A DNA stretch of 33,166 nt from Spartobacteria bacterium (GTDB taxonomy: Bacteria > Verrucomicrobiota > Verrucomicrobiia > Chthoniobacterales > UBA10450): positions 1-33,166 of the forward strand of contig PMSN01000007.1 of NCBI GenBank assembly GCA_003167555.1. Direction: 5' to 3'. The position numbers and the translations under genes are program-made. The notes under the pieces are model-generated. The model was not told the DNA's origin. It saw only the letters and a program-made list of their open reading frames with translations, and did not search any database. Position 1 is the stretch's first letter; every line of letters begins with the position of its first letter. Positions 20,364-33,166 of this stretch are shown piece by piece.

Positions 20364-20383
20364 TGGCAAGGATTAATTGTAGG

Positions 20384-20438
20384 GCGTTTCTGTGAAACGC
20401 TGTCGCCATATGGCAAGGTGGCGTCTGGCATAGACGCC
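20384..20438. repeat. REP-like double hairpin between nbaC and the ACMSD gene
   Basis: GCGTTTC (20384-20390) pairs with GAAACGC (20394-20400), and GGCGTCT (20420-20426) with AGACGCC (20432-20438). The 18-bp stretch at 20381-20398 recurs exactly at 25224-25241. The element ends 6 nt before the ACMSD start codon and could affect expression of the downstream gene. Confidence 0.75.
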
Positions 20439-20444
20439 AGGCAA

Positions 20445-21485
20445 ATGAAGATCGACCTGCACACGCACATCCTCCCGCACGATTGGCCCGATCTCGACGC
20501 GAAATACGGCTACAGTGGATTCGTTAGGCTGGAACATCATCAGCCGTGTTGCGCGCGAATGATGATTGGCGATCGCGTTTTTCGCGAGATCACCGACAAC
20601 GTGTGGGACCCCAGGCGCCGCATCGAGGAATGCGATCAAGCCGGCGTGACGATGCAGGTGCTTTCGACCGTGCCGGTGATGTTCAGCTATTGGGCGAAGC
20701 CGGCCGACGCGCTCGATCTTTCGCGGCGGTTAAACGATCACATTGCCGAAGTCGTGCGCGCTCATCCGGCGAGGTTCGCGGGCCTGGCGACGATTCCGTT
20801 GCAGGACCCGGAGATGGCGGCGCGCGAGTTGGAGCGCTGTGTCTCCGAGCTCGGCCTGCGCGGCGCGCAGATCGGCACGCACGTGGACGCGAACCCGCAT
20901 TTCGGCCGCATCGACACCTTGAACCTGGACAACGCGTCGCTCCAGCCGGTTTGGAGCGCAGCGGAACAGCTCGAGGCCGCGATCTTCGTTCATCCGTGGG
21001 ACATGCTCGGCAAGGAGCGCATGCCGAAATATTGGCTGCCGTGGCTAGTCGGCATGCCGGCTGAGACATCCCTCGCGATCTGCTCGATGATCTTCGGCGG
21101 CGTCTTCGAGCGTTTTCCAAAACTTCGCGTCGCCTTCGCGCACGGCGGCGGCGCGTTTCCTTTCACGATCGGCCGGATCGAACATGCCTTCCACGTCCGG
21201 CCGGATTTGTGCGCGACGGACAACAAGGCGAACCCGCGAAAATATCTCGCCGACGGCGACACACCCGCGCGGTTCTACGTCGACTCGCTCGTTCACGATC
21301 CCGACTCGCTGAAGTTGCTAATGAAGCTCTTCGGTGCACAACGTGTCGCGCTCGGCTCCGATTATCCGTTCCCGCTCGGCGAAGCACGGTCCGGCGAACT
21401 CATCGAGGGGATGAACGAGCTATCGCCGCAGGTGAAAACGCAACTGCTCTCCGGAACGGCGTGCGAGTTTCTTGGCCTCAAGTAG
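20445..21485 (+). CDS. nbaD: 2-amino-3-carboxymuconate-6-semialdehyde decarboxylase-type amidohydrolase
   Basis: A zinc-dependent decarboxylase of the ACMSD family that converts the NbaC product to 2-aminomuconate semialdehyde, diverting it from quinolinate. The 346 residues fit the family (about 335). Metal ligands are His6 and His8 (IDLHTHILP), His183 (FVHPWDM) and Asp306 (GSDYPFPLGE); His233 (AFAHGGGAFPF) is the likely catalytic base. FERFPKLRVAFAHGG is a typical signature. I chose ATG 20445 because it gives the standard MKIDLHTH start; the frame is open to 20418, but those codons lie in the upstream repeat. The call as ACMSD, not another amidohydrolase_2 enzyme, leans on the neighbour nbaC. 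Confidence 0.9.
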   Translation: MKIDLHTHILPHDWPDLDAKYGYSGFVRLEHHQPCCARMMIGDRVFREITDNVWDPRRRIEECDQAGVTMQVLSTVPVMFSYWAKPADALDLSRRLNDHIAEVVRAHPARFAGLATIPLQDPEMAARELERCVSELGLRGAQIGTHVDANPHFGRIDTLNLDNASLQPVWSAAEQLEAAIFVHPWDMLGKERMPKYWLPWLVGMPAETSLAICSMIFGGVFERFPKLRVAFAHGGGAFPFTIGRIEHAFHVRPDLCATDNKANPRKYLADGDTPARFYVDSLVHDPDSLKLLMKLFGAQRVALGSDYPFPLGEARSGELIEGMNELSPQVKTQLLSGTACEFLGLK

Positions 21486-21511
21486 ATTGGTGCGAAACAC
21501 AAACACTGCGC

Positions 21512-22018
21512 ATGAGCGACGAACCCGCGGCAATTCCATTAGCCGATATCCTCCGTGCGGCTAACGAATTGGTCGCATCAGGTTTGATTGAAGACCACGT
21601 CTTAGGAGGTGCGCTGGCCGCCATTTATTACGTCGAGCCCTTCACTACCTATGATGCTGACATCTTTTTCATCGCCGCCGACAAATCGCTCCGGGCGGGA
21701 ATTCCCGCCATCTATTCGCATCTTCAGTCAAAAGGCTGGCACGTCGAGCGCGAGCATCTGTTGATCAGAGATTTTCCGGTGCAGTTTCTGGCCGCGTCCG
21801 GGTTGACGGAAGAAGCCGTGCGCAAAGCGCGGCCCATCGAATACGAAGGTGTGGCAGCAAAAGTCTTTTCCCCGGAATACATCATTGCCATCGCCGCGAG
21901 TGTTGGCCGGCACAAAGATTGGGCCCGGATCGACCAACTCCAGGAACAAGCCGAGATCGACCGCAAGTTGCTGGACGATGTCTTGCGAAGGTATAATTTG
22001 AAGTTACCAAAGCCATGA
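21512..22018 (+). CDS. Nucleotidyltransferase-fold protein (MNT/AbiEii-like)
   Basis: 168 residues with features of a minimal polymerase-beta-type nucleotidyltransferase. It has a GGALA motif (32-36) and the metal-binding pair Asp48/Asp50 in TTYDADIFF. The position usually held by a third acidic residue reads Gln in FPVQFLAA, so catalysis is uncertain. It ends with an ATGA overlap to a 63-residue basic helical protein. Such two-gene arrangements often behave as toxin-antitoxin or phage-defence modules, but nothing here proves it. The start ATG at 21512 is 26 nt after the ACMSD stop. Confidence 0.7.
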   Translation: MSDEPAAIPLADILRAANELVASGLIEDHVLGGALAAIYYVEPFTTYDADIFFIAADKSLRAGIPAIYSHLQSKGWHVEREHLLIRDFPVQFLAASGLTEEAVRKARPIEYEGVAAKVFSPEYIIAIAASVGRHKDWARIDQLQEQAEIDRKLLDDVLRRYNLKLPKP

Positions 22019-22206
22019 CGCCAACGATGCGACGAGCGCTTGCCCGAGAAAGTTTTGCCAGCAAGATCGAGAAGGTCGGCCAACTCATTCGCCTTGCCAC
22101 CAAACTCAAAACCGCACGCGGTGAACCGAAGCGATCAACGGTTCAACCGACGAAGCGCAAGTATTCGCGGTCCCACGCGGCCGGAATATTTTCGCGGGGC
22201 GAATAG
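22015..22206 (+). CDS. Small basic protein overlapping the nucleotidyltransferase gene
   Basis: 63 residues; its start overlaps the preceding stop (ATGA), implying translational coupling. The N-terminal half is helical (RRALARESFASKIEKVGQLI). The second half is Lys/Arg/Ser-rich and overlaps the 3' end of the convergent Rieske gene by 64 nt, so it is probably unconstrained. It is a possible partner of the nucleotidyltransferase. I do not recognise a family. Confidence 0.5.
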   Translation: MTPTMRRALARESFASKIEKVGQLIRLATKLKTARGEPKRSTVQPTKRKYSRSHAAGIFSRGE

Positions 22207-23270
22207 GGGCCAGGTTGATAAGCGCGCGAGGCGATGCCTTGCTGGCTTAGCTCGCAGACGTGCCAGTCCTGCTTGTTGGTCATGTCCCAAAAGTCGATGG
22301 CGTCGTTCGGATGAAAATCAGAGCGATCGAAAGCTTCCGGATGGAAATACCAATCACACAGGATAAGTGTCCGTTCCGGCGATCGCGGCCAGAGTTGATG
22401 CACCATGACGTATTCAGGATGCATGCTCAGAAGCATGTTCGGGAAAATGGAATAATAGAAAACGCGCGCGTGGTCCTCAGCCTTGATGTCGCCCACCGGC
22501 AGCGCGCAAACGTTGCCGCTCATTGTCAGGCTTTTGCCGCTTGTAATCGGCATGAAGCCTCCAAGAAAAGGCCCTTCGCACAGATCGTTCTCCGCCAGGT
22601 CGTAGGGCGTCAGTTTCTGGAGCGCGGGATGAACTCCCGGGCAATGATAGCACTCCGAATAATTCTCGAAGATCAACTTCCAGTTCGCGCGGACATCATA
22701 CTCAATCCGTTTCGCTGAACGCAGCTTCGGTAGATTCCAGTGAGAAAATTTCCCGGCCAGCGGCGCAAACACTTCCTTCAGTGGCTTGGGCGCCTTCGCC
22801 AGATTCACGAAGATGAATCCTTCCCATATCGCCAGCTTCACCGCATGCAACGAATAGTCGGCCTTATCAAAGCCGTCCGCCTCGTCCATGTGCGGTGCGC
22901 CGATCAATCCTCCATCGAGCCCATAGGTCCAGGCGTGATACGGGCATTGAATCGCCGACAAGCGTCCCGTTTTCTCCTCGCACAATCGCGTCCCACGATG
23001 GCGGCAGACATTATAGAAGGCGCGCACCGTCGCTTCTCGATCGCGCACAACGATCAGGCTTTCCCGCGCCACTTCTTGAACGAAATAATCACCTGGCCTA
23101 CCGATCTGATTCTGGTGCCCGACCAAGGCCCATTGCTTGGAAAAGATCGCCGCCTGTTCTTCGGCAAAGATGTCCGGCGAAATGAAGTAACGCTGCGGCA
23201 GAGTCATCGCGCCCGCTCTGAAAGTGTCGGCCGTCTTACGAAATGAAGGTGTCACAGAGGTTTGAGCCAT
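22143..23270 (-). CDS. Rieske [2Fe-2S] aromatic-ring-hydroxylating-type oxygenase, alpha subunit
   Basis: A 375-residue oxygenase component from ATG 23270. A GGGGGA stretch 9 nt upstream supports this start over the TTG three codons earlier. The Rieske centre is CRH (Cys89, His91) and CPYH (Cys109, His112). The mononuclear iron motif NYSECYHCPGVHP gives His209 and His214; the third ligand, an Asp, should lie near WDMTNKQDW. The bridging position is Glu206 (ECYHC) where most dioxygenases have Asp, as in the carnitine monooxygenase CntA group, so an aliphatic or quaternary-amine substrate is possible. No reductase or small subunit is adjacent. The substrate is unknown. Its 3' end overlaps the convergent small gene at 22015. 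Confidence 0.9.
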   Translation of the reverse strand: MAQTSVTPSFRKTADTFRAGAMTLPQRYFISPDIFAEEQAAIFSKQWALVGHQNQIGRPGDYFVQEVARESLIVVRDREATVRAFYNVCRHRGTRLCEEKTGRLSAIQCPYHAWTYGLDGGLIGAPHMDEADGFDKADYSLHAVKLAIWEGFIFVNLAKAPKPLKEVFAPLAGKFSHWNLPKLRSAKRIEYDVRANWKLIFENYSECYHCPGVHPALQKLTPYDLAENDLCEGPFLGGFMPITSGKSLTMSGNVCALPVGDIKAEDHARVFYYSIFPNMLLSMHPEYVMVHQLWPRSPERTLILCDWYFHPEAFDRSDFHPNDAIDFWDMTNKQDWHVCELSQQGIASRAYQPGPYSPRENIPAAWDREYLRFVG

Positions 23271-23331
23271 TACTTGCAATCCCCCGATCTCTCAATCACC
23301 AGCTCACTCAATGCCCCGGCTCGCTCAATGC

Positions 23332-25125
23332 TTACGCCGCGACCGATGGCTGCTCCGGCTCTTGCCTTACCGAAATACGTTGCGACACGATCACCATGTC
23401 CGAGGCCTCTTCGCCGATCTGGAAGGTCTCTTCGAGCAGCGGCGCGTTAAACGACGCTTGCAGCTTTAGTCGGAAAAGCGATTCCGTCAGAGACTGACGC
23501 ACTTCGTAGAAGAGGCGATCGAAAGTATCGCCAAACTCAGAATCCAAACGCCCGCGAAACTCCTGCTGGGAATCCCCCAGCCGTTGCTTGAAATCGCGCA
23601 GGACACTCGATCGGCGCCAGAGCAATCCCACTGCGACCAGCAAAATGCCCGTGCCCAAAAATATTCCACCCGTGATATCGAGCCAAAGGATCGGAGAGAG
23701 CGCCGCGATGACGACTCCCAGGGCGGCGAGGAGGCTGCCGGCCAAGGCAAGTTTCCGCACATCCGTGGTCTCGGCCACTTTGCCCCGCAGAATGCTCTCG
23801 TCGATCTGGAGACCTTCCAGTTTCGATCGCAATTGTTCGAGCATTCCCAACTGCTCCCCGGCTTGCGGCAGCAGGACGCCGGCTCGCAGCCGTTCCTGTC
23901 GACGCGCGAGGGTTTGAGTTAGCTCGTCCATCATCGTCCGCATCTCGTTGAAAAGATCCTTCGACACCTGCGCCGCTTCGGCTTCGATTTCTTTCCGGGC
24001 GGACTTTTCGAAGTCGGCCTTCAAATCGGCTAGCCACGCTTCCGTGTTCTTGTCCCGGAGAAACGGAATCGCGCGCCGCAAGAGTTTTCCCACGCGAAGA
24101 CCTTTGGCAAACTCATCCTCCGACTGCCTGGCCAGGCTGTCGTAGGTGGCAGCGAGCTTGTCGACAATGAGTAGCTTTAACCCGTTCGCCTTCGCTTCGC
24201 GCGTATCTACTTTGCAAAGCAGGTTCTGGTAGAACGCGCGCTCCTCCTCCATCGCCGTCTTCTCGGCGCGGAGATGTGCCAGCAATCGCGTCATGACCGA
24301 TCGGATCGTTTGATACGATCCTTCCACTTTCATCCGCCACGCTTCTCCACAGGCGATGGTAGTTTGGAGGTAGGTCCGAAACTCCGAGAAGCCGCTCTCC
24401 GGCATTACTTCTATTTCTCGCTTGGCCGAGAGCGTGAACACGGTCGGGTTCTCGACCTGCCGATCACGCGCATACTGCCTCACGTGTTCCAGGTTCGTGG
24501 TCAGCTCCCATTGGCTGGCGCGGTCCGCCTGCTGGAGCACAAACACCATCTTTCGGTGCCACTGTTTGCTGATCAAAGTCAGAAGCTCCCAGGCCGATTT
24601 CGTATGCGGGTTCACCGCGGAAAAAACAAACACCACGAGATCGCTTTGCGGGATGTAGTTCTCCGTGATCGTCTGATGATCCTTCATGATCGAGTTGGTC
24701 CCCGGCGTATCGACCATCGAGATTTCTCGAAGCGCTTCCTTCGGCAGCGAAACACGCTGCCAGGCGTCGCCCAGGTTCTCTATCTTGCGTTCCACTCCAT
24801 AGACCAATTCCTGGATGCGGACCGTGCACGGCCCCGGCGCCACTTCGCAAACATCCTCGCGGAGCAGCGCATTAATGAAGCTGCTCTTGCCCGCCTTCAC
24901 TTCCCCCACGATGACGAGCAACGCCGCCGCCTGGAGATTCGTCAGCCGCGCCCGGAGAATTTGGGAGGCCTCAATGTCCGCGCACCTTTCCGCCAGCCAC
25001 AAAGCGCGTTGCAGCAAACTCCGGAGCGTCTCGAACTGCGCCTTCAATTCCGGACTTAAAATATGAGGCGTCATCGCTGGGTTCTGGCCGTCCGTTTCCG
25101 GTTGCCTTTGCTCCACTTGGCTCAT
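23332..25125 (-). CDS. Dynamin-like GTPase (bacterial dynamin family)
   Basis: 597 residues from ATG 25125; the frame extends up to 25218, and ATG 25074 is another option. The GTPase domain has P-loop GEVKAGKSS (74-82), Thr101 as the probable switch-I residue (PGPCTVRI) and DTPG (139-142). The G4 element reads QQAD (198-201) in place of the usual NKxD or T/QKxD. Long alpha-helical coiled-coil regions follow (about 270-450). A hydrophobic hairpin at about 458-503 (two helices, LAGSLLAALGVVIAALSPIL and GGIFLGTGILLVAVGLLW) would anchor it in the membrane. Such proteins remodel or protect membranes. It is a single gene here, whereas many bacterial dynamins come in pairs. Confidence 0.85.
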   Translation of the reverse strand: MSQVEQRQPETDGQNPAMTPHILSPELKAQFETLRSLLQRALWLAERCADIEASQILRARLTNLQAAALLVIVGEVKAGKSSFINALLREDVCEVAPGPCTVRIQELVYGVERKIENLGDAWQRVSLPKEALREISMVDTPGTNSIMKDHQTITENYIPQSDLVVFVFSAVNPHTKSAWELLTLISKQWHRKMVFVLQQADRASQWELTTNLEHVRQYARDRQVENPTVFTLSAKREIEVMPESGFSEFRTYLQTTIACGEAWRMKVEGSYQTIRSVMTRLLAHLRAEKTAMEEERAFYQNLLCKVDTREAKANGLKLLIVDKLAATYDSLARQSEDEFAKGLRVGKLLRRAIPFLRDKNTEAWLADLKADFEKSARKEIEAEAAQVSKDLFNEMRTMMDELTQTLARRQERLRAGVLLPQAGEQLGMLEQLRSKLEGLQIDESILRGKVAETTDVRKLALAGSLLAALGVVIAALSPILWLDITGGIFLGTGILLVAVGLLWRRSSVLRDFKQRLGDSQQEFRGRLDSEFGDTFDRLFYEVRQSLTESLFRLKLQASFNAPLLEETFQIGEEASDMVIVSQRISVRQEPEQPSVAA

Positions 25126-25225
25126 GCGCCGCCGATCATATCGCCCGACTTCTCCCCTGCCCATCTGAAATTTGAAGAATCCGCCAAAATCTCGCGACCG
25201 AGCGATCTTCCCTCGCATTTTGGAG

Positions 25226-25244
25226 GGCGTTTCTGTGAAACACC
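25226..25244. repeat. REP-like hairpin, second copy of the 20384 element
   Basis: GGCGTTTC pairs with GAAACACC (one mismatch) around a TGT loop. Eighteen bases, 25224-25241, are identical to 20381-20398. It lies upstream of the dynamin-like gene. Confidence 0.7.
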
Positions 25245-25261
25245 GCCGCTTCCGCCCCCAT

Positions 25262-25310
25262 CCTCTCCGCTATCCTCCGCCCTCCATCCTCGATTCTCGA
25301 TTCTCCACGT
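25262..25310. repeat. Degenerate tandem heptamers (about 7 units)
   Basis: Period-7 units CCTCTCC, GCTATCC, TCCGCCC, TCCATCC, TCGATTC, TCGATTC, TCCACGT lie in the gap between the dynamin-like gene and hflX. Confidence 0.65.
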
Positions 25311-25324
25311 CCCACCCCCACCCT

Positions 25325-25359
25325 CTCGTCACTCGTCACATGTCACATGTCACTCGTCA
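25325..25359. repeat. Tandem heptamers (5 units) upstream of hflX
   Basis: Units CTCGTCA, CTCGTCA, CATGTCA, CATGTCA, CTCGTCA are perfectly phased. They end 31 nt before the hflX start, so they lie in its leader or promoter. Confidence 0.8.
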
Positions 25360-25390
25360 CTTCTTCCGACCCTGCTAGATTGTGAATCCG

Positions 25391-26707
25391 ATGTTTGAGA
25401 TCAAGGCCAAAGACAAGATGGTCGAGCGCGCGCTTCTCCTCGGCGCGTACATCGATACCGGCAAGAAGGCCGAAGCGCAGAGTTTGCTCGAGGAACTCGA
25501 AGAACTTGTCGATACGCTCGGCATTCCCGTCGTCGAGCGGAAGCTGGTTTATCATCGCGAACAACATCCGCGCTACTTGATCGGCTCCGGCAAAGCCCAG
25601 GAGATTGTCGATCTCGCGAAGAAACTCGAGTGCGACGTCCTCGTTTTCGACAACGAGCTGAGCCCATCGCAGCAACGAAACTGGGAGGAGCTTGCCGGCA
25701 TGACCGTGGCCGATCGGCAGGAAATCATCCTCGATATTTTCGGCGCCCGCGCCCAAACCCGCGAAGCCCGTATCCAGGTGGACCTCGCCCGCATGTCGTA
25801 TTCGCTCCCGCGGCTCACCCGTGCCTGGAGTCACCTCGGACAACAAGGCGGCGGCATCGGCGCGAAAGGCGAAGGCGAAAGCCAGCTCGAGCAGGACAAA
25901 CGAAAAATCCGGTTGCAGATCGACCGGCTCAAGCGCGAGCTCGTCGTCGTCCGCAGCTCACGCGCCACGCAGCGGAAGGATCGGAAACGCGCTCCGGTGC
26001 CGAACGCAGCCATCGTCGGCTACACCAATACCGGCAAGTCCTCGCTCCTGCGCCGGCTCACGGGCGCGGACGTTCTCATCGAGAACAAACTCTTCGCCAC
26101 CCTCGATACCACCACGCGCAAGATCGCGCTCCCGAATAAGCAGCCGCTTCTCCTTACCGACACCGTCGGTTTCGTCCGGAAGCTGCCGCATCAACTCGTC
26201 GAAGCGTTCAACGCCACCCTCGAAGAAGCCGCGCTCTCCGACTTCCTCATCCACGTCCTCGACGCTTCGCAGCCCGAGGTCATGGAATTCTACAACACCA
26301 CCATGCGCGTCCTGACCGATCTCGGCGCCGACACGAAACAAATGCTGGTTGTCTTCAACAAGATCGACAAGTTGAGCGATCCCTCCGCGCTCTTCGCCTT
26401 GCGCCGGCATTTCCCCGACGCCGTTTCCGTCTCAGCCAAAACCGGCGAGGGCATGCCCGAGTTGATCGAACGCATTTCCGAATTCGTCGCCCGCGGCACA
26501 ATGACGATCGCGCTCCGCCTCCCCTCCGAGCGCGCCGATCTCCTCGCGCGCCTGCATCGCGAAGGTTCCGTGCACGACCTTCAATACGAGGAAGGCTTCA
26601 CCTCCGTCACCGCCACCATCCCCACGCGATCCCTCGAACTCTTCGCCCCCTTCCTCGCCGCCTCCGATCCTGCCGTCATCGACGAGCCGGTCCCTGCGTC
26701 CGACTAG
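25391..26707 (+). CDS. hflX: Ribosome-associated GTPase HflX
   Basis: A 438-residue GTPase that splits or rescues stalled ribosomes under stress. The N-terminal HflX domain contains HREQHPRYLIGSGKAQEI and NELSPSQQRNWE. The glycine-rich hinge is GGGIGAKGEGESQLEQDKR (153-171). The G domain has GYTNTGKS (210-217), DTVGFVRKLP (257-266), NKID (323-326) and SAK (348-350). I chose ATG 25391 (MFEIKAKDKMVERALLLG), which matches the usual N-terminus; GTG 25382 would add three residues. It is monocistronic. Confidence 0.95.
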   Translation: MFEIKAKDKMVERALLLGAYIDTGKKAEAQSLLEELEELVDTLGIPVVERKLVYHREQHPRYLIGSGKAQEIVDLAKKLECDVLVFDNELSPSQQRNWEELAGMTVADRQEIILDIFGARAQTREARIQVDLARMSYSLPRLTRAWSHLGQQGGGIGAKGEGESQLEQDKRKIRLQIDRLKRELVVVRSSRATQRKDRKRAPVPNAAIVGYTNTGKSSLLRRLTGADVLIENKLFATLDTTTRKIALPNKQPLLLTDTVGFVRKLPHQLVEAFNATLEEAALSDFLIHVLDASQPEVMEFYNTTMRVLTDLGADTKQMLVVFNKIDKLSDPSALFALRRHFPDAVSVSAKTGEGMPELIERISEFVARGTMTIALRLPSERADLLARLHREGSVHDLQYEEGFTSVTATIPTRSLELFAPFLAASDPAVIDEPVPASD

Positions 26708-26720
26708 AGAACTGACTGCT

Positions 26721-26806
26721 GCCCTCTACCCTCTGCCCTCCATTGTTTCCTACTTTCTACTTCCTACTTTCTACTTCTTCAGGCTACTTCCTACTTTCTA
26801 CTTTCC
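26721..26806. repeat. Tandem heptamers between hflX and the carbonic anhydrase gene
   Basis: Two blocks are present: GCCCTCT/ACCCTCT/GCCCTCC (26721-26741), and repeated CCTACTT/TCTACTT units (26749-26806). The second block runs into the minus-strand carbonic anhydrase gene and encodes its last residues (VESRK) and its TAG stop. Confidence 0.8.
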
Positions 26807-27446
26807 CCAACGCTCCTACCGCCTTTTCATAGACCGCAACCATTTGCGGAAAATCGCTCACGGTAACATTCAGATCTCTGAGCAGCCCATCCTTGAGCCC
26901 ATAGATCCAACCATGCACCGTTAACTCCTGGTCGCGCTCCCAGGCGTCGCGGGCAATCGTAGTCTGGCAGACGTTCACCACCTGCTCGACGACGTTCAAC
27001 TCACAAAGCCGGTCCGAAGCCTCCGACTCACCGCCCGCGCTCGCCAGCCACGTCTCATGCTTCCGCCGCACATCGTCCACATGGCGCAGCCAGTTATCGC
27101 TTAGGCCCAGCCGGTCGCGCCGAAGCGCAGCCCCCACGCCGCTGCATCCATAATGTCCGCAGACAATGATGTGGCGCACCTTCAAGAGATCCACCGCGAA
27201 CTCCATTACCGACAAACAATTGAGGTCCGTGTGCACCACCAGGTTGGCGAGATTGCGGTGGACGAACAATTCTCCCGGCGCCAATCCCACAATCTGATTG
27301 GCCGGCACCCGGCTGTCCGAGCAGCCGATCCAAAGATAGTTAGGCGATTGTTGTTGCGAAAGCCCGATAAAGAACTCCGGGTCCTGCTGCCGGATACGTC
27401 CGGCCCAAGCCTTGTTGCTCTCGAAAAGATGACTGAGCGTTTCCAT
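26784..27446 (-). CDS. can: Beta-class carbonic anhydrase
   Basis: Interconverts CO2 and bicarbonate in the cytoplasm. The 220 residues are typical. Zinc ligands are at the same positions as in E. coli Can: Cys42 and Asp44 (GCSDSRVPAN), His98 and Cys101 (VCGHYGCSGV). The bicarbonate-site region FVHRNLANLV and GWIYGLKDGLLRDL are conserved. The final five residues and the stop are encoded by an intergenic heptamer repeat, so the original end was probably a little different. Confidence 0.95.
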   Translation of the reverse strand: METLSHLFESNKAWAGRIRQQDPEFFIGLSQQQSPNYLWIGCSDSRVPANQIVGLAPGELFVHRNLANLVVHTDLNCLSVMEFAVDLLKVRHIIVCGHYGCSGVGAALRRDRLGLSDNWLRHVDDVRRKHETWLASAGGESEASDRLCELNVVEQVVNVCQTTIARDAWERDQELTVHGWIYGLKDGLLRDLNVTVSDFPQMVAVYEKAVGALGKVESRK

Positions 27447-27496
27447 GAGAAGTCCGCAGCCTACGCAGATTTCGCAGACAACAAAACGCCAATCCG

Positions 27497-27559
27497 TCCG
27501 CCCTCCGACCTTCTGCCCTCTCCGCTATCCTCTAGCCTCAATCCCTCCATCCTCGCCCC
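27497..27559. repeat. Degenerate tandem heptamers
   Basis: Pyrimidine-rich period-7 units (TCCGCCC, TCCGACC, TTCTGCC, CTCTCCG, CTATCCT, CTAGCCT and so on) lie in the gap between the carbonic anhydrase start and the DUF5069 gene end. Confidence 0.6.
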
Positions 27560-27581
27560 CATCCCCAGTCCTCCCGGGCAC

Positions 27582-27606
27582 GCCGTAGCCTTGGCGAAGG
27601 CGGCTA
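27582..27606. repeat. REP-like hairpin overlapping the DUF5069 stop codon
   Basis: GTAGCCTT and AAGGCGGCTAC form an imperfect stem around GGCG. The outer CTA (27604-27606) is the TAG stop of the minus-strand DUF5069 gene. Confidence 0.55.
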
Positions 27607-28047
27607 CTTCAGCACCGCCTGGTGGAACTCGTACCAGTCATCCAGATTGTTCAAGTTCACCGCGTCTCGTGGCGCGGCCGCATCGTCCGCCATGCCGCAA
27701 GAACCCAGCACACTCTTACGCGTTTCGTCATCGTGAATATACCCGCGCACCGAGGCGTTATGCTTCTCGATCGCCTCCGGTGTAAGCGTCTTGGCGTTCT
27801 TCTTCACCCACGCTTCAAATTCCGGGTAGGTCGGCTTCTTCTGCTTAATGAAATCCTTCACCGCCTGTTCCTCGAGCCCGAGCGCCGCGCAAGTCATCGC
27901 ATCGAACCCTCGACCGATGCCGGGATAACCCGCGGCGAGTTTACCCGCCGCTTCGAGAGAGACTTTCTGCCAAAGCCGCGGCAGGTGCAGAACGCCAAGT
28001 GGCCCGGCCGTGCCGGAACTGATTAGTGGAACGTAAGTGTTGCTCAT
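27604..28047 (-). CDS. DUF5069 domain-containing protein
   Basis: 147 residues. The pattern LGVLHLPRLWQKVSLEAAGKL, GIGRGFDAMTCAALGL, PTYPEFEAWVKKNA and NLDDWYEFHQAVL matches the DUF5069 family as I remember it, a cytoplasmic protein of unknown function common in Verrucomicrobia. It contains no catalytic motif I can name. The stop TAG lies in a REP-like hairpin. Confidence 0.82.
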   Translation of the reverse strand: MSNTYVPLISSGTAGPLGVLHLPRLWQKVSLEAAGKLAAGYPGIGRGFDAMTCAALGLEEQAVKDFIKQKKPTYPEFEAWVKKNAKTLTPEAIEKHNASVRGYIHDDETRKSVLGSCGMADDAAAPRDAVNLNNLDDWYEFHQAVLK

Positions 28048-28142
28048 AATGACGAGAGACTAGTGATTCCAAGGCGCGAACACAACAATTTGTCACGCCG
28101 GCTTTAGCGAAGATGGAAGCCTTCGTAATGGTGGATCCGTCT

Positions 28143-28170
28143 TCTACTTTCTAATTTAGACTTTCTACTT
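28143..28170. repeat. Tandem heptamers (4 units)
   Basis: Units TCTACTT, TCTAATT, TAGACTT, TCTACTT lie 3' of the CPBP protease gene. Confidence 0.65.
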
Positions 28171-28188
28171 TCTCGCTCGGATTCGAGC

Positions 28189-28932
28189 TCACCGTCCAAG
28201 TCTCCCGAGACCCTCAATGTAGCAGTTACCCAAGCCATGAAGAACACAAACAATGGCGAGATTGCCCGATCTCCTAAACAGCACCCCAAAGAACAACCCG
28301 GTCACAAAAATACCCGCGAACATGGGTAACGCCTGCCAGGGCGCACGACCCGAGAAGTGGTAGAAATGCAAGGGACCGAAAGTGAAGAATAAGTTGCTGA
28401 CGAGAATGCCCCAGGCAGAGCCCCAACGCCGCACGAGTTCCGTCTGCAGAATTCCGCGGTAGACGAGTTCCTGATGGAAACCCCAGACGAAGTTTGTAAA
28501 GACAACAATCGCCGCGGGGCGCCACCATGTGCCAGGGTCCGCTACGATCATTCGCAATCGGTCCGCGAAGAGAACGCCGAAGACAACGTTCCCGATGACG
28601 AACACCTGGATGAGGTAAGACTTCTCCGTCACATTCCAATTCCGCCAGGGATACAGACCGATCTGCGCCAGCCTCACTCCAGCGAAGAACCGGGTGAGGA
28701 CAATCGCCAAAACAAGCAAGACGGGGACGCGCAGCCAGGCAGGAGGGACAGGCAGTCCACCAAGGCTAAGGAGCCACAACCTGGGACCGATCACGCCTTC
28801 CAGCAAAACGAAGATCAGCAACAACCGAAGACCCGCAGCAGAATCGATTTCGGGCGGACGCTTATTCCCAAAAAGAAAAACGTGGCCCCGTAAATGGCAA
28901 GCCAACCACTCGCCCCAAGTTCGCGTCTTCAT
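28189..28932 (-). CDS. CPBP-family intramembrane metalloprotease
   Basis: A 247-residue polytopic membrane protein of the Abi/CAAX (CPBP) family. Motif 1 appears as HQELVYRG, with Gln where the first Glu of EExxxR normally stands. Motif 2 is FGPLHFYHF, and motif 3 is VLHGLGN. About six to seven hydrophobic segments are visible. Relatives process prenylated or bacteriocin-related peptides, or protect against them; the substrate is unknown. It is the leftmost gene of the minus-strand group whose spacers resemble integron attC sites. A degenerate site lies just upstream of its start, but I found no attC after its stop, so it may be the last cassette or a resident gene. Confidence 0.8.
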   Translation of the reverse strand: MKTRTWGEWLACHLRGHVFLFGNKRPPEIDSAAGLRLLLIFVLLEGVIGPRLWLLSLGGLPVPPAWLRVPVLLVLAIVLTRFFAGVRLAQIGLYPWRNWNVTEKSYLIQVFVIGNVVFGVLFADRLRMIVADPGTWWRPAAIVVFTNFVWGFHQELVYRGILQTELVRRWGSAWGILVSNLFFTFGPLHFYHFSGRAPWQALPMFAGIFVTGLFFGVLFRRSGNLAIVCVLHGLGNCYIEGLGRLGR

Positions 28933-28949
28933 GTGGTGTTACACTGCGA

Positions 28950-29036
28950 AAGTAATGAGGAAGAAACCAGCTACGTCTACCAAAAGCGAGCCGGAATGTC
29001 CTCTGTCCTCCGACCTCGACCTCTGGATGGTTAGAT
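28950..29036 (-). other. Degenerate attC-like site, membrane protein cassette / CPBP gene
   Basis: Read on the minus strand, the left box is a perfect RYYYAAC (ATCTAAC, 29036-29030) and contains the TAA stop of the 29031 gene. The inner right half (GGTAGACGTAGCTGG) matches the site at 29587-29696. The terminal right box has decayed to ATTACTT. Heptamers occupy the loop. It is probably a relic that is poor at recombination. Confidence 0.5.
28999..29026. repeat. Heptamers in the loop of the 28950 attC-like site
   Basis: TCCTCTG and TCCTCCG are followed by less regular ACCTC units. They sit between the two halves of the attC-like element. Confidence 0.5.
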
Positions 29037-29588
29037 GTTCTGTGGCCGACGGCGTGCGTATCCAAAAAAGAGCCCTCCAATCGACGCCAGAATCAAGGCG
29101 GCGACGAACCACTCGATGCCGTTCCTCTGGAGAGGAAACCAAGAGCCGCTCTGACGGAGGCCGGTCGCAGCAGCAATTAGGAAGCACAAGATGCCGAGTA
29201 TAGGAAAGATGAGAGCGAGCGCTTGAGCGCCTTCGCGCGAAAGCGACCGCCTTCTGGCGTGGGCCGTGCGCCATCCCTTGGATAGTTCCAGCGCCAAGCT
29301 GACTAGGTAGAGGAAGGCGCAGAAAAGTAGAGACGGGATCAGTAGAACCCAGAGCCAAAAGGGCTCCAATGCCTCCCTCGACCGCGCTCCGTAAAGGGCT
29401 ATCGCGCAAATCACGTTCGGAACCAAAGCAAATACGCTTAAGAACGCGAGCTCGTTGTATAGCCGGCCCAAGATGGAGATGTGCATGAAAAACCAAAACC
29501 GGCTCAGGAACCAGCAAGCAGGAGAAAAAAAGACGGGAACCAGCGGGAGAAATATCCACCACTTAACTGTGCGGAGATATTTTTTCAT
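29031..29588 (-). CDS. Hypothetical polytopic membrane protein (probable integron cassette gene)
   Basis: 185 residues with about four hydrophobic segments: WWIFLPLVPVFFSPACWFL, LAFLSVFALVPNVICAIAL, FWLWVLLIPSLLFCAFLYLV and ALALIFPILGILCFLIAAA, plus a possible fifth near the C-terminus. It has no recognised family. The start codon overlaps the upstream attC box (GTTAGATG), so there is no Shine-Dalgarno of its own. The stop TAA lies inside the RYYYAAC box of the next site. This packing of a single gene between two boxes is typical of integron cassettes. The base composition looks less GC-rich than in the core genes. Confidence 0.7.
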   Translation of the reverse strand: MKKYLRTVKWWIFLPLVPVFFSPACWFLSRFWFFMHISILGRLYNELAFLSVFALVPNVICAIALYGARSREALEPFWLWVLLIPSLLFCAFLYLVSLALELSKGWRTAHARRRSLSREGAQALALIFPILGILCFLIAAATGLRQSGSWFPLQRNGIEWFVAALILASIGGLFFGYARRRPQNI

Positions 29589-29696
29589 CTAACGAGAACA
29601 AGATCAGCTACGGCTACCGATAGCGAGCCAAAATGTGATCTGACTTCCGACCTCCGACTTGTGACTTCTGAGCTCTGCTGCATGGCTTGGTCAGGC
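29587..29696 (-). other. attC-like recombination site, 110 bp
   Basis: On the minus strand it begins GCCTGAC (one mismatch to RYYYAAC, 29696-29690) and ends with a perfect GTTRRRY box, GTTAGAT (29593-29587). The right half, 32 bp ending at that box, is 27/32 identical to the right half of the site at 32838-32960. The stop TGA of the 29691 gene is inside the left box, and the start of the 29031 gene overlaps the right box. The left arm pairs only partly with the right. Six heptamers fill the central loop. Confidence 0.65.
29639..29680. repeat. Tandem heptamers (6 units) inside an attC-like site
   Basis: Units TCTGACT, TCCGACC, TCCGACT, TGTGACT, TCTGAGC, TCTGCTG lie in the central loop between the two arms of the 29587-29696 site. 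Confidence 0.75.
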
Positions 29697-30325
29697 GGGC
29701 CTTCCACTCGGCGATTGCATCGATCGCTGCAGGGATAGATAAAGGCTTGATGTTGCTAACAGCGTGACTGGAAATGTGATGACTAGCCCCACGCCAAGGA
29801 GGGCAGCCCCGGCAAGATTCAGTAATAGGGCCATTAGCACGAAACCGCACACCGTCCACCACCGGCCATGCGAGAGCGCCGCAGCACCCCGCAGGGCCTC
29901 AAGAGCCGATGCGGGCCGTGTTGCAAGAATGTGCCCGAAGAGTGCATACCGAACAGCCACATAGATCCCAGGCACAACGAGAAGCACGAGACCGCCAGCT
30001 ACCGCTACTAAATAGATGCAGAAAGCGAGAAGAAAGCTTGGGCCCCGGTCGAGCAAAGCAGTCAGGTCAGTCAAGTTTGGCGCATTGCCATCTGCGGCCT
30101 TTAGGGCAATGCCATGACATCCCACGATGAGCCCGAAAACAGGAACAGGAAAACCAGGTGGAGAACAAGCCACACAACGAATCCAAATCGGTGAAGTCCC
30201 ACCACGGCCAACTCTAAAGCTACCCACGAGGCAAAAAGAATGAGCATCGACATGACAAAGACACGCGGACCTGAGTGAAATATCCTCCACGCAGTCCGAA
30301 AGCGCGGTGTGTCTTGATCAGTCAT
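29691..30325 (-). pseudogene. Frameshifted polytopic membrane protein (probable integron cassette gene)
   Basis: The first frame runs from ATG 30325 (MTDQDTPRFRTAWRIF, membrane helix, FGFVVWLVLHLVFLFLFSG). The natural continuation lies in another frame (FGLIVGCHGIALKAADG) down to TGA 29691. The break is at or near a four-A run (plus strand 30136-30139). Adding one base there gives one 211-residue frame with about four to five membrane helices (LLAFCIYLVAVAGGLVLLVV, WWTVCGFVLMALLLNLAGAA and others). The similarity to YIP1/DUF-type membrane proteins is vague. It could be a true pseudogene or a sequencing or assembly indel. The stop is inside the attC left box GCCTGAC; the start is 17 nt after the preceding attC. 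Confidence 0.65.
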
Positions 30326-30341
30326 CCGAAAAGAACATAGC

Positions 30342-30407
30342 GCCTAACGAAACACAAGAGCAACGACTGGTTAAGCGCTTGGCTGCCATCCAAGTCTGCG
30401 GTGAGGC
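30342..30407 (-). other. attC-like recombination site, 66 bp, well formed
   Basis: On the minus strand the left box is GCCTCAC (30407-30401, one mismatch) and the right box GTTAGGC (30348-30342, perfect). The inner arms GCAGACTTGG and CCAGTCGTTGC pair with a few unpaired bases, as expected of L boxes with extrahelical bases. A terminal stem CTTGG/CCAAG caps the loop. The length is within the classical attC range. The stop TGA of the exported Ig-like gene (30408-30410) abuts the left box. Confidence 0.7.
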
Positions 30408-30776
30408 TCAAGCTGATATCGGCGGTAACGACGCCATGGTGGTTCGGTCCTCGGGCGAAGGACAATCCGGATGTTGCGTGGAAATGGAGGGCGAATCCCG
30501 CCAATGAAGTCGCCGTGCAAGGCAAGGAGCCAATCGAGAGACGCTCGTTCGCAGGGTGAAGTCGCCGGCACTGTTAGTGTATGTCTCGCCAAGAGTTCCG
30601 TTCCAAGGCGGATTCCGGTGATCGTAGATTTCGATAAGCGGAACCTCATGAACCGCAAGAATCCGCGCTTTCGGTACGCTGCGATTTGCGCGATCGACGA
30701 CGCGACCGCGAATTGTGCCGGAGTACGCGCACTCGCAAAGTGCGAGAAAAATAACGACTGTGATTATGCGATACAC
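30408..30776 (-). CDS. Small exported protein with carboxypeptidase-regulatory-like (Ig-like) fold
   Basis: 122 residues. A signal peptide covers about 1-19 (IITVVIFLALCECAYSG). Then comes a short beta-sandwich pattern of the CarboxypepD_reg type: GTIRGRVVDRANRSVPKARI, then TYTNSAGDFTLRT. After residue 77 the composition changes to Arg/Pro/Ser-rich and the fold pattern is lost. A frameshift or an altered C-terminus is therefore possible; the other two frames are also open here. The TGA stop lies exactly against the left box of the following attC, which favours this frame. The role is unknown. Confidence 0.55.
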   Translation of the reverse strand: MYRIITVVIFLALCECAYSGTIRGRVVDRANRSVPKARILAVHEVPLIEIYDHRNPPWNGTLGETYTNSAGDFTLRTSVSRLAPCLARRLHWRDSPSISTQHPDCPSPEDRTTMASLPPISA

Positions 30777-31085
30777 GGGGACACCTAGCGAGAATGGAGC
30801 GGACTGCCAAGCCGTGACATAGACGGGAAGCCCGAAGGGTGAACGAGTAGCATGAGGTGAATAAATTGATCAGTTATGGCCGCCGAGAGCGAGCATAATC
30901 AGAGATCAGAGGACACAGGACAGAAATCAGTTTGGCGATAGAATGCTCGGTATTGTCTGACTTCCGACATTCTGGCCTCCGACCTCTGACAACCTCTAAC
31001 CTCTGCGCTGTACCTCCCTTCTATTTTCAACCTTCTAATTTTCATGCCGCCAAGCGGTACACAGCCTTGGGCGACACGATGGGAC
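30777..31085. other. Gene-free stretch with attC-type half sites and heptamers
   Basis: 309 bp between the DUF1036 gene and the small exported protein gene. It holds a box ACCTAGC (30783-30789, one mismatch to RYYYAAC) followed by sequence similar to other attC right halves. A second half-site (30867-30894, GATCAG..GGCCGCCGAGAGCGAGC) matches the 29587 site. There is also a block of heptamers (30956-31004) and an imperfect hairpin near 31043-31074. I read it as one or two decayed attC sites. I see no gene in it. Confidence 0.45.
30956..31004. repeat. Tandem heptamers (7 units)
   Basis: Units TCTGACT, TCCGACA, TTCTGGC, CTCCGAC, CTCTGAC, AACCTCT, AACCTCT hold a constant 7-bp period. They resemble those in the 29587-29696 site loop. 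Confidence 0.75.
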
Positions 31086-31433
31086 TTACGGAACTAGATT
31101 CAAGGTAAAGTCATCGTAATCTTCAATATCCAGTAACCGAAAGCCGACATCGCGCGAATCCGTGCTTCCCGTCCATTCGCACCAATCGTACGCCTGATGG
31201 GGCACCGCGCGGACATAAGGTCCCGCCCACACCACCCCATCAGCCGTGTGCGCGTAGTAACAAAAGTAGCGATTCACTTCGTCAAGGTCGCCTCCAAAGA
31301 CATTTGCGGCGTGTCCGGGGTCAATTTTCCACCAACCTGCCTTGGACCAATCGCCGCCGTCGGGGCAATTTGGGGTATACCACATAATGCTGACCCACAC
31401 TGTTCTCGGGTAATGATTACCTATAGTTAACAT
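31086..31433 (-). CDS. DUF1036 domain-containing protein
   Basis: 115 residues. The pattern YPRTVWVSIMWY, then WSKAGWWKIDPGHAANVFGG, then YYAHTADGVVWAGPY, matches the DUF1036 family as I remember it, a small domain of unknown function usually found in exported proteins. This copy has no signal peptide. A GGAAAGG Shine-Dalgarno precedes ATG 31433. It lies in the minus-strand cassette-like region, 35 nt downstream of the putative 66-residue gene. Confidence 0.75.
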   Translation of the reverse strand: MLTIGNHYPRTVWVSIMWYTPNCPDGGDWSKAGWWKIDPGHAANVFGGDLDEVNRYFCYYAHTADGVVWAGPYVRAVPHQAYDWCEWTGSTDSRDVGFRLLDIEDYDDFTLNLVP

Positions 31434-31468
31434 AAGTTTGCCTTTCCAGGGTTAAAGGGATTGCACCG

Positions 31469-31669
31469 TTAATCACAGGCTTGTCGTTGGAACGCGGGCA
31501 AGGAGTGCTTGGCCCGTTTCGCCACTTCGAGATGAACGGCATCGTAACGCCCAGCGCCATGCAGTGCAGTTCCCGCCGCTCGTTCGTTCACGCGCCTTCC
31601 TCCGCCTTTACCGGTCTCGCCGGAGGCAACGCGCCCACCTAATAGTTCCTTGCTTGTTGTTTTCTTCAT
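31469..31669 (-). CDS. Hypothetical small protein (66 aa)
   Basis: A short frame with a possible GAAAGG Shine-Dalgarno before ATG 31669. The protein is basic and Gly-rich at the N-terminus (KKTTSKELLGGRVASGETGK), with no membrane segment and no recognised family. It may be co-transcribed with the DUF1036 gene. It is plausible but could be a chance frame. Confidence 0.4.
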   Translation of the reverse strand: MKKTTSKELLGGRVASGETGKGGGRRVNERAAGTALHGAGRYDAVHLEVAKRAKHSLPAFQRQACD

Positions 31670-31894
31670 AGTGCCTTTCTTGCCTTATTCTTGCTAGTTG
31701 TTGACATCGGTTCGGATAAAAGACCGAAAATAAAGTGCCGACAAAGGCGGCTTTCGTTGGTTAAAACACCGTCCCGGCAGCGGGATCAGTTCGGGCGCTC
31801 ACATTGAGTCTTCGCCAGAGCTGCCCGGCTACGGCCGGATTCCCTCCCCCTGTGGACAATCTCTCCACACCAACTGAATACGACTTTTGCCGGC

Positions 31895-31915
31895 CGAAGT
31901 TTTAAAAAAACTTCG
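31895..31915. repeat. Hairpin, 9-bp stem
   Basis: CGAAGTTTT pairs with AAAACTTCG around AAA. AT-rich, with no following U-tract that would make it a standard terminator on the plus strand. Confidence 0.7.
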
Positions 31916-32006
31916 ATCAGCCAGTAGGAGAATTCCTACACCCCTTTGTCAGACGCGAACTTCGAGGGATCTAAGTTCCTCTTCCACCGATCGCATTGAT
32001 CAAATT

Positions 32007-32024
32007 GTCCCGCGCCTGCGGGAC
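32007..32024. repeat. Hairpin, 7-bp stem, enclosed by a 10-bp outer stem
   Basis: GTCCCGC pairs with GCGGGAC around GCCT. It lies inside the longer pairing 31976-31985 with 32069-32078. Confidence 0.65.
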
Positions 32025-32106
32025 GGATAGGAGTACGAGCCGCTGGAAAACAAAACCACTGAGCCAAAGGAAGAGGAAGCGCTCACGAAGAACCAATAAC
32101 CTACCA

Positions 32107-32181
32107 ACCCAACCTAAACCAATGAACTAAAAACCAACCCACACCCGCATCCACGCTTGACTCCCTACATAGGGGTTAGGT
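32107..32181 (-). other. Possible attC-like site downstream of the reductase cassette
   Basis: On the minus strand the left box ACCTAAC (32181-32175) is a perfect RYYYAAC and contains the TAA stop of the reductase gene. A GTTGGGT box (32113-32107) fits GTTRRRY, but the arms between are hardly complementary. The right end is therefore uncertain. Confidence 0.4.
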
Positions 32182-32778
32182 GGCGGCGTTTGGTGGCTCG
32201 CCGCCACGATGTCCTCGCACCTCGTAACAAAGCTCCACCATGCCGCTCTTATAGGCTTTGACCTCCGCCAGATGGAGAGCGATGTCTCTGTCGAGCTTCT
32301 CGAAGAACGGTATCCCATCGCCAATCAAGATCGGCAGGATCGAATAACGAACTTCGTCGGCCAGCCCGAGACGAAGGCATTCGCCGGAAACTACACCGCC
32401 TCCAACAAACCAGATGGTACGGAACCTGGACCGCAGGCGCCCATTCACGAACTGCGCAAGATCGCCTGAGTAGAACTCGACAGTATCCCGGGTTCGCGGC
32501 AGATCGCGACTAGTGAGGACGAAGGTGGGTTTGTCGCCGTACGACCACCCCAGTCCTTTGGCTTCAAAACTCAACGCGGTCTCATAGGTTCGCGACCCCA
32601 TGACGTAGCAGTCGATCGTCTTGAGGAAGGTCTCGACGAATCCTGGGTCCAGGGTGTCCCCGCCTGCGAATTCGTCTGAGGTTTCGAGCCAGTCGACGCG
32701 CCCGTCCTTTCGAGCGATGAAGCAGTCGAGGCTCGCCGCCATGTGAATCGTTACGCGAGAATCAGTGTTTGACATCAT
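32176..32778 (-). CDS. RibD C-terminal / dihydrofolate reductase-like protein (integron cassette gene)
   Basis: 200 residues from ATG 32778, which has AGGG five nt upstream; ATG 32775 and ATG 32829 are alternatives. The fold signatures are VTIHMAASLDCFIARKDG at the N-terminus (the family normally reads SLDGFIA; Gly is Cys here), VMGSRTYETAL, and WFVGGGVVSGECLRLGLADE near the NADPH site. Relatives include YyaP/YwjB-like proteins and are rarely true folate enzymes; the substrate is unknown. The stop TAA is inside an ACCTAAC box, and the best attC of the window lies directly upstream, so it is flanked as an integron cassette should be. Confidence 0.85.
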   Translation of the reverse strand: MMSNTDSRVTIHMAASLDCFIARKDGRVDWLETSDEFAGGDTLDPGFVETFLKTIDCYVMGSRTYETALSFEAKGLGWSYGDKPTFVLTSRDLPRTRDTVEFYSGDLAQFVNGRLRSRFRTIWFVGGGVVSGECLRLGLADEVRYSILPILIGDGIPFFEKLDRDIALHLAEVKAYKSGMVELCYEVRGHRGGEPPNAAT

Positions 32779-32837
32779 GTCGCCCTGTCGTGGAGTGCCA
32801 TGGCTCGCAGCATTGCTCGGTGCCGACATTTGAGTCC

Positions 32838-32960
32838 ACCTAACGAGAACAAGCTGAGCGACGGCCACCGGGAGCGCGCGTCGCTCGAAGCGAAAAGATT
32901 TTGGCCAGGCGAGATCTCAACGCGCAACGGGTGGCCGTTCGTTCCAGCGCTCGGTTAGGC
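32838..32960 (-). other. attC recombination site, 123 bp, best example
   Basis: On the minus strand the left box is GCCTAAC (32960-32954) and the right box GTTAGGT (32844-32838), both perfect to RYYYAAC and GTTRRRY. The inner arms ACGGCCACC and GGTGGCCGT form a 9-bp stem that continues outward past one unpaired A in the left arm, as expected for an extrahelical base. The central part (about 60 nt) could form a variable terminal structure. It stands 9 nt upstream of ATG 32829 of the reductase cassette. Confidence 0.75.
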
Positions 32961-33057
32961 CACGCGAATTCACAAACTAAGTGCAACACGACGGACGTGT
33001 GGAGGGAAAGGAAAAAGAAGAGTTTGGAAGGGGCCCAAGAGTGGCGGGAAGATGGGG
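32961..33057. mobile_element. Probable left end of an IS30-family insertion sequence
   Basis: This 97-bp stretch separates the attC from the transposase start. The sequence near 32966-32990 (CAAACTAAGTGCAACACG) is a candidate terminal inverted repeat; the other end is outside the window, so this cannot be confirmed. A purine-rich stretch (33001-33030) precedes the gene. Confidence 0.4.
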
Positions 33058-33166
33058 ATGAAGTATCGGCAACTCAATGGGGAAGAGCGGAGCGTGCTGG
33101 CGGCGTTGCGACTGGTGGGGCTCAAACCGGCGGAGATCGCGCGCGAGCTTGGGCGACATCGCAGCA
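33058..33166 (+). CDS. IS30-family transposase, N-terminal fragment (cut by window edge)
   Basis: An open frame from ATG 33058 to the window end, 36 codons. It reads KYRQLNGEERSVLAALRLVG then LKPAEIARELGRHRS, the N-terminal helix-turn-helix typical of IS30 transposases. The catalytic DDE domain would lie beyond the edge. The ATG follows a purine-rich stretch. It is oriented opposite to the cassette genes. Confidence 0.82.
   Translation, partial: MKYRQLNGEERSVLAALRLVGLKPAEIARELGRHRS

Follow-up and report, generated by a model that had tools for sequence, protein, structure and literature searches.

The right-hand end of contig C22 raises the question of how an apparent integron cassette array comes to stand in a chromosome without an integrase beside it. 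This 33-kb contig is the whole of the DNA stretch analyzed here (the window; 33,166 nucleotides), and belongs to a source genome of 4.2 Mb in 29 contigs that is 98% complete. A preliminary description, made from the letters of the window, had pointed to several short, unrelated genes on the minus strand between 28950 and 32960, separated by sites resembling the attC recombination sites of integrons. Our main finding is that this region is very probably the distal part of a decaying chromosomal integron cassette array, which on this contig takes the form of a cluster of attC sites lacking an integrase (CALIN). Throughout, C numbers designate contigs, G numbers the genomes of relatives and L numbers extracted stretches; seven congeners were compared.

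The first line of evidence is the fold of the sites. Thirteen complete sites from other contigs, located through their common right half, were aligned with the one at 32838-32960 of the window (alignment A2). These 14 sites adopt the attC fold, with 7 R''/R' pairs, 17 L''/L' pairs and two unpaired, extra-helical columns in L''. Paired cells amount to 95.8%, compensatory changes occur in the stem, with changes on both sides in 10 pairs, and the covariation score is 0.367 versus 0.126 in shuffles; when the partners were slid by 1 to 3 columns, at most 45.2% of the cells paired. Two covariance models were used: R2, built from the 13 sites of other contigs so that the window site was held out, scored the whole window up to E 10, while R1 had 14 training sites and a filters-off run limited to 20001-33166. 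Half-site weight matrices, likewise held out, were set against a background of 40 dinucleotide shuffles of the window. In its own genome R1 recognized at least 25 sites at E <= 0.01, the 14 training sites included, with 150 of 2838 first-look candidates scored. Counting of short motifs was rejected as proof, as TAACGAGAACAAG with 3 mismatches occurs 8 times in the window versus 5.6 times expected.

The sites of the array are the following:
32838-32960, minus strand: intact attC, R''-L''-loop-L'-R' with two extra-helical columns (R2, 107.3 bits, E 1.4e-27)
32175-32181, minus strand: R'' box ACCTAAC of the attC of the RibD_C cassette, the rest of the site lost (a complete attC follows the homologous cassette in G002 and G003)
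30783-30894, minus strand: attC right half whose L' and R' are separated by an insert of about 70 bp (right-half matrix; same insert elsewhere)
30342-30407, minus strand: degenerate attC with a recognizable right end and a poor left half (R2, 18.1 bits, E 0.0045 for 30342-30376)
29587-29696, minus strand: attC with an intact right half, a degenerate left half and a centre that is now simple-repeat-like (R2, 31.9 bits, E 7.5e-7)
28950-29036, minus strand: decayed attC that keeps its R'' whole but has, by eye, three mismatches in R' (right-half matrix; similarity to the site at 29590)

The array therefore holds one intact attC, one half-intact attC and remnants. Two attC recognized by R2, those at 32838-32960 and 29587-29696, lie near each other in the same orientation, with a third at E 0.0045, and the model found nothing else in the whole window. 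The half-site matrices agree with this grading: at 32838 the right half scores 54.5 and the left half 34.0, each equalled by none of the 40 shuffles, and at 29587 the right half scores 51.4 (0 of 40) and the left half, 29664-29696, 7.5 (18 of 40), so that among the window sites the left-half matrix supports 32838-32960 only. The right half at 28950-28991 scores 17.7, a value reached by none of the shuffles, and this site is 77% identical over 65 nucleotides to the one at 29590; at 30342 the right half, in a register with one extra column, was matched by 10 of 40. The preliminary description had overlooked the site at 30783-30894. Provided that the register includes one extra column, its right half (30852-30894) scores 7.2, with 2 of 40 shuffles as high (30853-30894, without that column, is equalled by 36 of 40), and 30783-30812 gives E 0.56 with R1 when the filters are off. 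The same insert resides at the same position in two attC of C21 and in C2 of G007, and in an interrupted version in C12; the loci noted for it include L315:2396-2510 and 3948-4037.

Covariance scoring, which the preliminary description had proposed as a check, does not reject all of its sites. It upholds 32838-32960 and 29587-29696, whereas 30342-30407 proves degenerate and 28950-29036 decayed, with more than the single box mismatch that had been allowed. The stretch 32107-32181, suggested with less assurance, is not an attC: it combines the R'' box of the RibD_C site with the end of an element of the IS110/IS1111 family. The right half said to be common to the sites of unrelated genes is indeed found at 32838, 29587 and 28950, and more weakly at 30342.

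The second line of evidence comes from relatives. With R1, an attC of the window type was found in at least 33 of the 39 genomes searched (the source genome included). These include all 8 searched from the genus and all 25 from the family; scoring was limited to 91 candidates in any one genome, a ceiling that G002 attained, and site counts are therefore lower bounds. The integron integrase IntI was detected at E <= 1e-60 in 29 of 58 genomes, again including the source genome. Homologues of the gene with the RibD_C domain, 86-93% identical in nucleotides, are present in four of the seven congeners. The gene has an attC on both sides in G003 and immediately adjoins one in G002 and G001; in G005 the nearest attC matches are about 1.5 kb away. 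A second unit (503 nucleotides, 92% identity), common to G003 and G005, follows the RibD_C gene in the former and precedes it in the latter, in the same orientation. With cut-offs of 130 nucleotides and E 1e-10, no other neighbor of this gene is shared with the window or among the four congeners, except attC, sequence of an IS1111 remnant, and a stretch of about 300 nucleotides in G003 and G005 at 73%. The proposal of an integron cassette array is thus supported by the held-out covariance model, the compensatory changes in the stem and the recurrence of the RibD_C cassette in congeners.

The genes and the insertion sequences (ISs) of the region, with its left flank, are:
32963-33166, plus strand: left-hand part (204 bp) of an IS30-family element of 1,088 bp that the contig end truncates (97% identity to a complete G003 copy)
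32176-32829, minus strand: gene cassette with a RibD_C domain, dihydrofolate-reductase-like (Pfam PF01872, E 2.2e-9, scored on the open reading frame (ORF) 32179-32868, from an upstream GTG)
31973-32174, minus strand: remnant (non-coding end) of an IS110/IS1111-family element, directly behind the R'' box (comparison of copies; transposase of the C8 copy)
31086-31433, minus strand: probable cassette gene, an ORF that matches DUF1036 weakly (PF06282, E 1.2e-5, narrowly above the cut-off)
30408-30776, minus strand: ORF of 122 amino acids, probable cassette gene (carboxypeptidase-regulatory-like match below the cut-off)
29691-30325, minus strand: probable and possibly broken cassette gene, seen as membrane-protein ORFs in two frames that overlap (YciC/UPF0259 matches below the cut-off)
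29031-29588, minus strand: ORF of 185 amino acids, probable cassette gene (no family match)
28189-28932, minus strand: ORF of a CPBP/Rce1-like membrane protease (PF02517, E 7.2e-14)
25372-28047: chromosomal genes left of the array, namely a conserved gene, a carbonic anhydrase and a DUF5069 gene (homologues in G006 and G003)

That unrelated genes share the minus strand, as first described, is borne out: the cassette ORFs belong to unrelated Pfam families or to none, and Pfam gave no match for the nine overlapping ORFs on the plus strand of the region, so that the common minus orientation stands. Each unit has one short gene, several of these genes being only probable. The ORFs at 29691-30325 have a homologue on C51 of G002 (72% in nucleotides), and 28189-28932 is either the last unit of the array or the first chromosomal gene. 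No match was obtained for the whole window with Rfam at gathering thresholds, nor with ARAGORN. Simple-repeat-like runs, TTCTGACTTCTGAC and TTCTACTTTCTAC, occur at 28142-28172, 29639-29690 and 30950-31045 of the window and at L001:1410-1500. Runs of this type were seen in intergenic DNA, on C18 downstream of intI, and at the centre of decayed attC, and are possibly linked to attC decay.

Directly behind the RibD_C gene, the array has been struck by an insertion sequence. In G002 and G003 the gene continues into ACCTAAC and a full attC, whereas in the window ACCTAAC gives way directly to about 200 bp of sequence that recurs in the genus. Eight distinct copies of this element, that of the window included, join a CTAAC box (CTAACC in seven, CTAACT in the eighth); at the six far ends known, GCGATG was found four times and ACGATG once, which is the start of attC L'', and neither at the remaining one. 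The copy on C8 leads into a reading frame with one stop that matches DEDD_Tnp_IS110 (E 3.9e-11) and Transposase_20 (E 3.9e-17), and the non-coding end of the element lies downstream of this transposase gene. This IS110/IS1111-family transposase (L312:1410-2549, minus strand) is situated within a cassette array on C8, and inspection by eye shows, in the non-coding end of the C8 element, the word ATGCGAT, which resembles attC and could be a guide match. An IS1111-attC group of insertion sequences was reportedly described by Tetu and Holmes in 2008. As far as the features given for that group go, the family's elements resemble it in having an IS110/IS1111-type transposase, a non-coding region downstream of the transposase gene and an insertion point inside attC; the window copy differs in being a remnant of about 200 bp without transposase. 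On this comparison of sequences, we take the window to preserve the relict end of an IS1111-attC-type element. In IS1111-type elements the non-coding region downstream of the transposase gene is the source of a guide RNA, according to PMC11187229, and by analogy the remnant may once have encoded one.

The right edge of the array is capped by the second element, which the preliminary description had correctly assigned to IS30. Its left end starts at 32963, the start codon of its transposase is at 33052, and a complete copy of 1,088 bp lies in G003 (L248:9279-10366) with GAT on either side. The G003 transposase (322 amino acids) matches HTH_38 (E 1.2e-12) and, just below the cut-off, rve (E 1.4e-7); the terminal inverted repeats are imperfect, 13 of 26 end positions being identical. 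Members of the IS30 family duplicate 2-3 bp of their target. The transposase type, the terminal inverted repeats and the short target duplication all agree with this family. At first the two motifs seen at contig ends could have belonged to two different ISs; this was ruled out, as the complete G003 copy has both ends. The right-end motif was found on nine contigs of the source genome, three of which extend for 250-277 bp at 98% to the element.

Left-end flanks are known for ten copies (eight in the source genome, one in G002, one in G003), and in six (C22, C25, C1, C8, C11 and G002) three bases, of which the last is the R of R'', lie between the left end and a YCTAACC with an attC that the model recognizes; the first 25 bases of the C1 and C8 flanks are identical. 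The left-end flanks of C21 and C3 are not attC. Those of C2 and G003 look like degenerate attC by eye, and were not accepted because R1 gave no match up to E 10. At right ends, 11 of 12 flanks from four genomes have a purine as their last base, as a break just behind the first position of R'' would predict. This single register at the R'' box in six of ten left ends suggests, from the insertion sites compared, that the IS30-family element targets attC; the box would be cut as R^YYYAAC and made whole again by a 3-bp duplication. In the window, the trinucleotide at 32960-32962 (TGG in cassette orientation) is the presumed 3-bp target duplication, and the R'' box of the attC is consequently intact.

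Known IS30-family elements with hot-spot targeting (PMC9333248) resemble this one in their transposase, which has HTH_38 and an rve-like core, and in having imperfect terminal repeats, a short target duplication and a site preference; the difference is that the preferred site here is apparently the R'' box of an integron attC. Among the literature matches listed, whose coverage of subscription journals is poor, we found no description of IS30 targeting attC, and such a preference may be new. The alternative is that the element has no target preference, and that it came to stand at attC because IS copies travelled, and multiplied, within cassettes mobilized by IntI. Indeed, an IS located between the ORF and R'' belongs to the cassette and would move along with it; moreover, two of the ten left ends are nothing like attC, and the two that resemble it by eye have no model support. 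However, the attC behind the IS differ from one another, the C25 and C1 sites being 73-79% identical to that of the window over its length, and the sequences ahead of the right ends differ as well, whereas copies of one cassette would share both. We consequently regard passive carriage as improbable.

Where, then, is the integrase? As first described, there is none in the window: a TIGR02249 search of the source genome at E <= 0.001 gave nothing on C22, which ends 206 bases to the right of the last attC, inside IS30; on this contig the array counts as a CALIN, the alternative put forward in the preliminary description. Elsewhere in the genome the TIGR02249 cut-off is exceeded by two intact ORFs, on C18 (472 bits) and C14 (465 bits), and C4 has an integrase remnant. 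C14 and C18 have the usual divergent layout, with intI, an attI-like site, one cassette, a full attC, a second cassette and an IS30 right end that is the contig end; each of these contigs also ends within about 1 kb of intI. Among the named relatives of the genome's integrase the nearest is in a Candidatus Udaeobacter metagenome-assembled genome (MAG; 77%), followed by three other MAGs of Verrucomicrobia/Chthoniobacterales, other phyla reaching at most 67%. The four best named relatives thus all being Verrucomicrobia, the integrase gene, taken alone, makes a verrucomicrobial host likely, as had been supposed.

Of the nine IS30 right ends of the source genome, seven are downstream of an attI-like module or intI (C3, C4, C12, C14, C18, C21 and C23); that on C20 is behind a weak attI-like match with 3 mismatches, and that on C17 has none among the sites found. 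The module in question is about 55 bp long, ends in CGTCTAATTCTCGTTAGRY and occurs at nine places in the source genome. In eight of these the flanks examined, up to 2.5 kb a side and less at contig ends, have no similarity to IntI, and the ninth is the C4 remnant. We call it attI-like because it follows the 3' end of an intI in G005, G002 and G020. A total of 71 module sites were collected in 18 genomes (one is really an attC, one in the source genome lacks the hairpin part, and flanks are shorter than 2.5 kb at many loci): IntI similarity is nearby in eight, and for 46 a motif test finds the right half of an attC no more than 1.3 kb away in the same strand. The 65 distinct stretches (for example L318:4295-4354, L371:2467-2526 on the minus strand, and L324:3611-3670) are scattered over mostly unrelated chromosomal places, and the DNA upstream of them is mostly unrelated; one pair, in G006 and G007, has 1,080 bp upstream in common at 79%, with no downstream match reported.

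In 38 of the 65 stretches, picked for the long form and aligned, nested inverted repeats covary, with 89.4% of cells paired and a covariation score of 0.230 versus 0.125 in shuffles. Two alternative folds both exceed shuffles in paired cells and covariation score and are not separable; for the second, pairs changed on both sides are equalled by 84 of 500 shuffles. Five loci, four of them carrying an attI-like module, gave no Rfam match at E <= 1 other than a tRNA. Three genomes have many sites and modules: G006 (95% complete) at least 34 attC and 7 modules, G007 (97%) at least 38 and 12, and G019 (100%) at least 25 and 5. No IntI scored above 83 bits in any of the three, which is in the range of ordinary Xer-type recombinases. 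A further genome, G018, has an N-terminal integrase fragment (64 bits) at C9:24525-24725, about 2.3 kb from an attC, and no complete IntI was found in it.

The adjoining of module and intI 3' end in G005, G002 and G020 recalls the Treponema integrons, in which intI is transcribed towards attI (PMC3607928); the two intact intI of the source genome, in the usual divergent layout, are unlike them. Cassettes ending in attI-like sites recombine in mobile integrons, according to PMC12901181, and by analogy this is a conceivable route for module spread. Lone attI-like modules may be new.

How the window came to its present state can be pictured as follows. IntI recombining folded attC would have built the array cassette by cassette, and insertions and mutation would then have left four boundaries as remnants, the order of decay being our reconstruction. 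The IS30 insertion at the 5' edge of R'' of the first visible attC would separate the array from its former upstream DNA; 32838-32960 would be the site of the cassette whose ORF lies past IS30. As the insertion leaves the box whole, this attC is expected to be usable by IntI still, and should remain a substrate for the two intact integrases elsewhere in the genome, acting in trans.

Several observations weigh against this picture. Four of the six boundaries are poor: 28950 fails the covariance model (R1, 4.6 bits, E 8.5 for 28975-29036, minus strand), 30342 is weak, 30783-30894 is a right half alone and 32175-32181 a box alone. The evidence for cassettes moving singly is between species and concerns the RibD_C cassette only. 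The array's absence from relatives is weak evidence of gain here because the order of the left-flank genes is not fixed: all three genes of 25372-28047 lie in one 12-kb stretch of G006 (77-84% in nucleotides) in another order, whereas a G003 stretch has the first of the three only (81%) and the left-flank genes of that genome are spread over three contigs. Neither the G006 nor the G003 stretches homologous to these genes have an attC at E <= 1. The possibility that one gene order is fixed in all relatives, which would have spoken against cassettes, is answered in part by this lack of a fixed order. Finally, the target duplications do not reconnect the array to a head. The trinucleotides of the eight left and nine right ends of the source genome have only CGA in common, no right-end flank found there has the TGG that simple insertion at the window site predicts, and linking C22 to C14 or C18 in this way was given up because the trinucleotides did not match. 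Being mostly unpaired, they imply that the copies rearranged the genome or that contig ends are missing; deletions, inversions and cointegrates are known products of IS30 (PMC9333248).

Two other origins of the locus have to be weighed. Dispersed palindromes, of the repetitive extragenic palindromic (REP) or terminator kind, between ordinary chromosomal genes would require no integron, and the window does have simple-repeat-like intergenic runs and other dispersed repeats. Against this stand the covariation with its two extra-helical columns and the score of the intact site, IntI genes beside sites of the same family, the identity of right halves between unrelated genes and the recurring RibD_C cassette, and we consider it scarcely credible. 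Rather more can be said for a CALIN founded here by off-target (attG-type) insertion of cassettes, with IntI acting in trans and the array never attached to an attI at this place. The genome has IntI genes elsewhere, off-target insertion is one origin of CALINs listed in PMC8618304, and the left-end IS30 flank of the window is matched by no right-end flank found. The frequency with which IS30 right ends lie downstream of an attI-like module or intI favors arrays with a head, and makes an off-target founding rather unlikely. We infer that the array probably once had an attI/intI head, as the preliminary description had expected beyond IS30; a missing head is plausible.

In the CALINs of PMC8618304 and PMC12444791, attC-bounded single-gene units in one orientation have no integrase nearby and one elsewhere in the genome; here too the units are of this form, with no integrase on C22 and intact ones on other contigs. 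The window departs from them in having a single fully intact attC, an IS30-family cap at attC and attI-like modules scattered in the genome. The array itself thus belongs to a known kind of structure, and most of the interest lies in the attC preference of IS30 and in the lone modules. As a tentative generalization, for which the case is at present somewhat less than even, the integron of this genus would be a distributed system: many attI-like modules, mostly lacking a detectable integrase close by, would each head a small array and be served in trans by few or no IntI, and an IS30 specialized on R'' would insert without destroying the site, ride cassettes and scatter arrays by recombination between copies. 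The array illustrates the loss of the integrase and the wearing down of cassette arrays, through elements that strike attC at three distinct points. By sparing attC, an IS would serve as a vehicle and not as a wrecker, and the question of trans-acting or vanished integrases becomes testable in those congeners that have dozens of attC and several attI-like modules but in which no IntI was detected.

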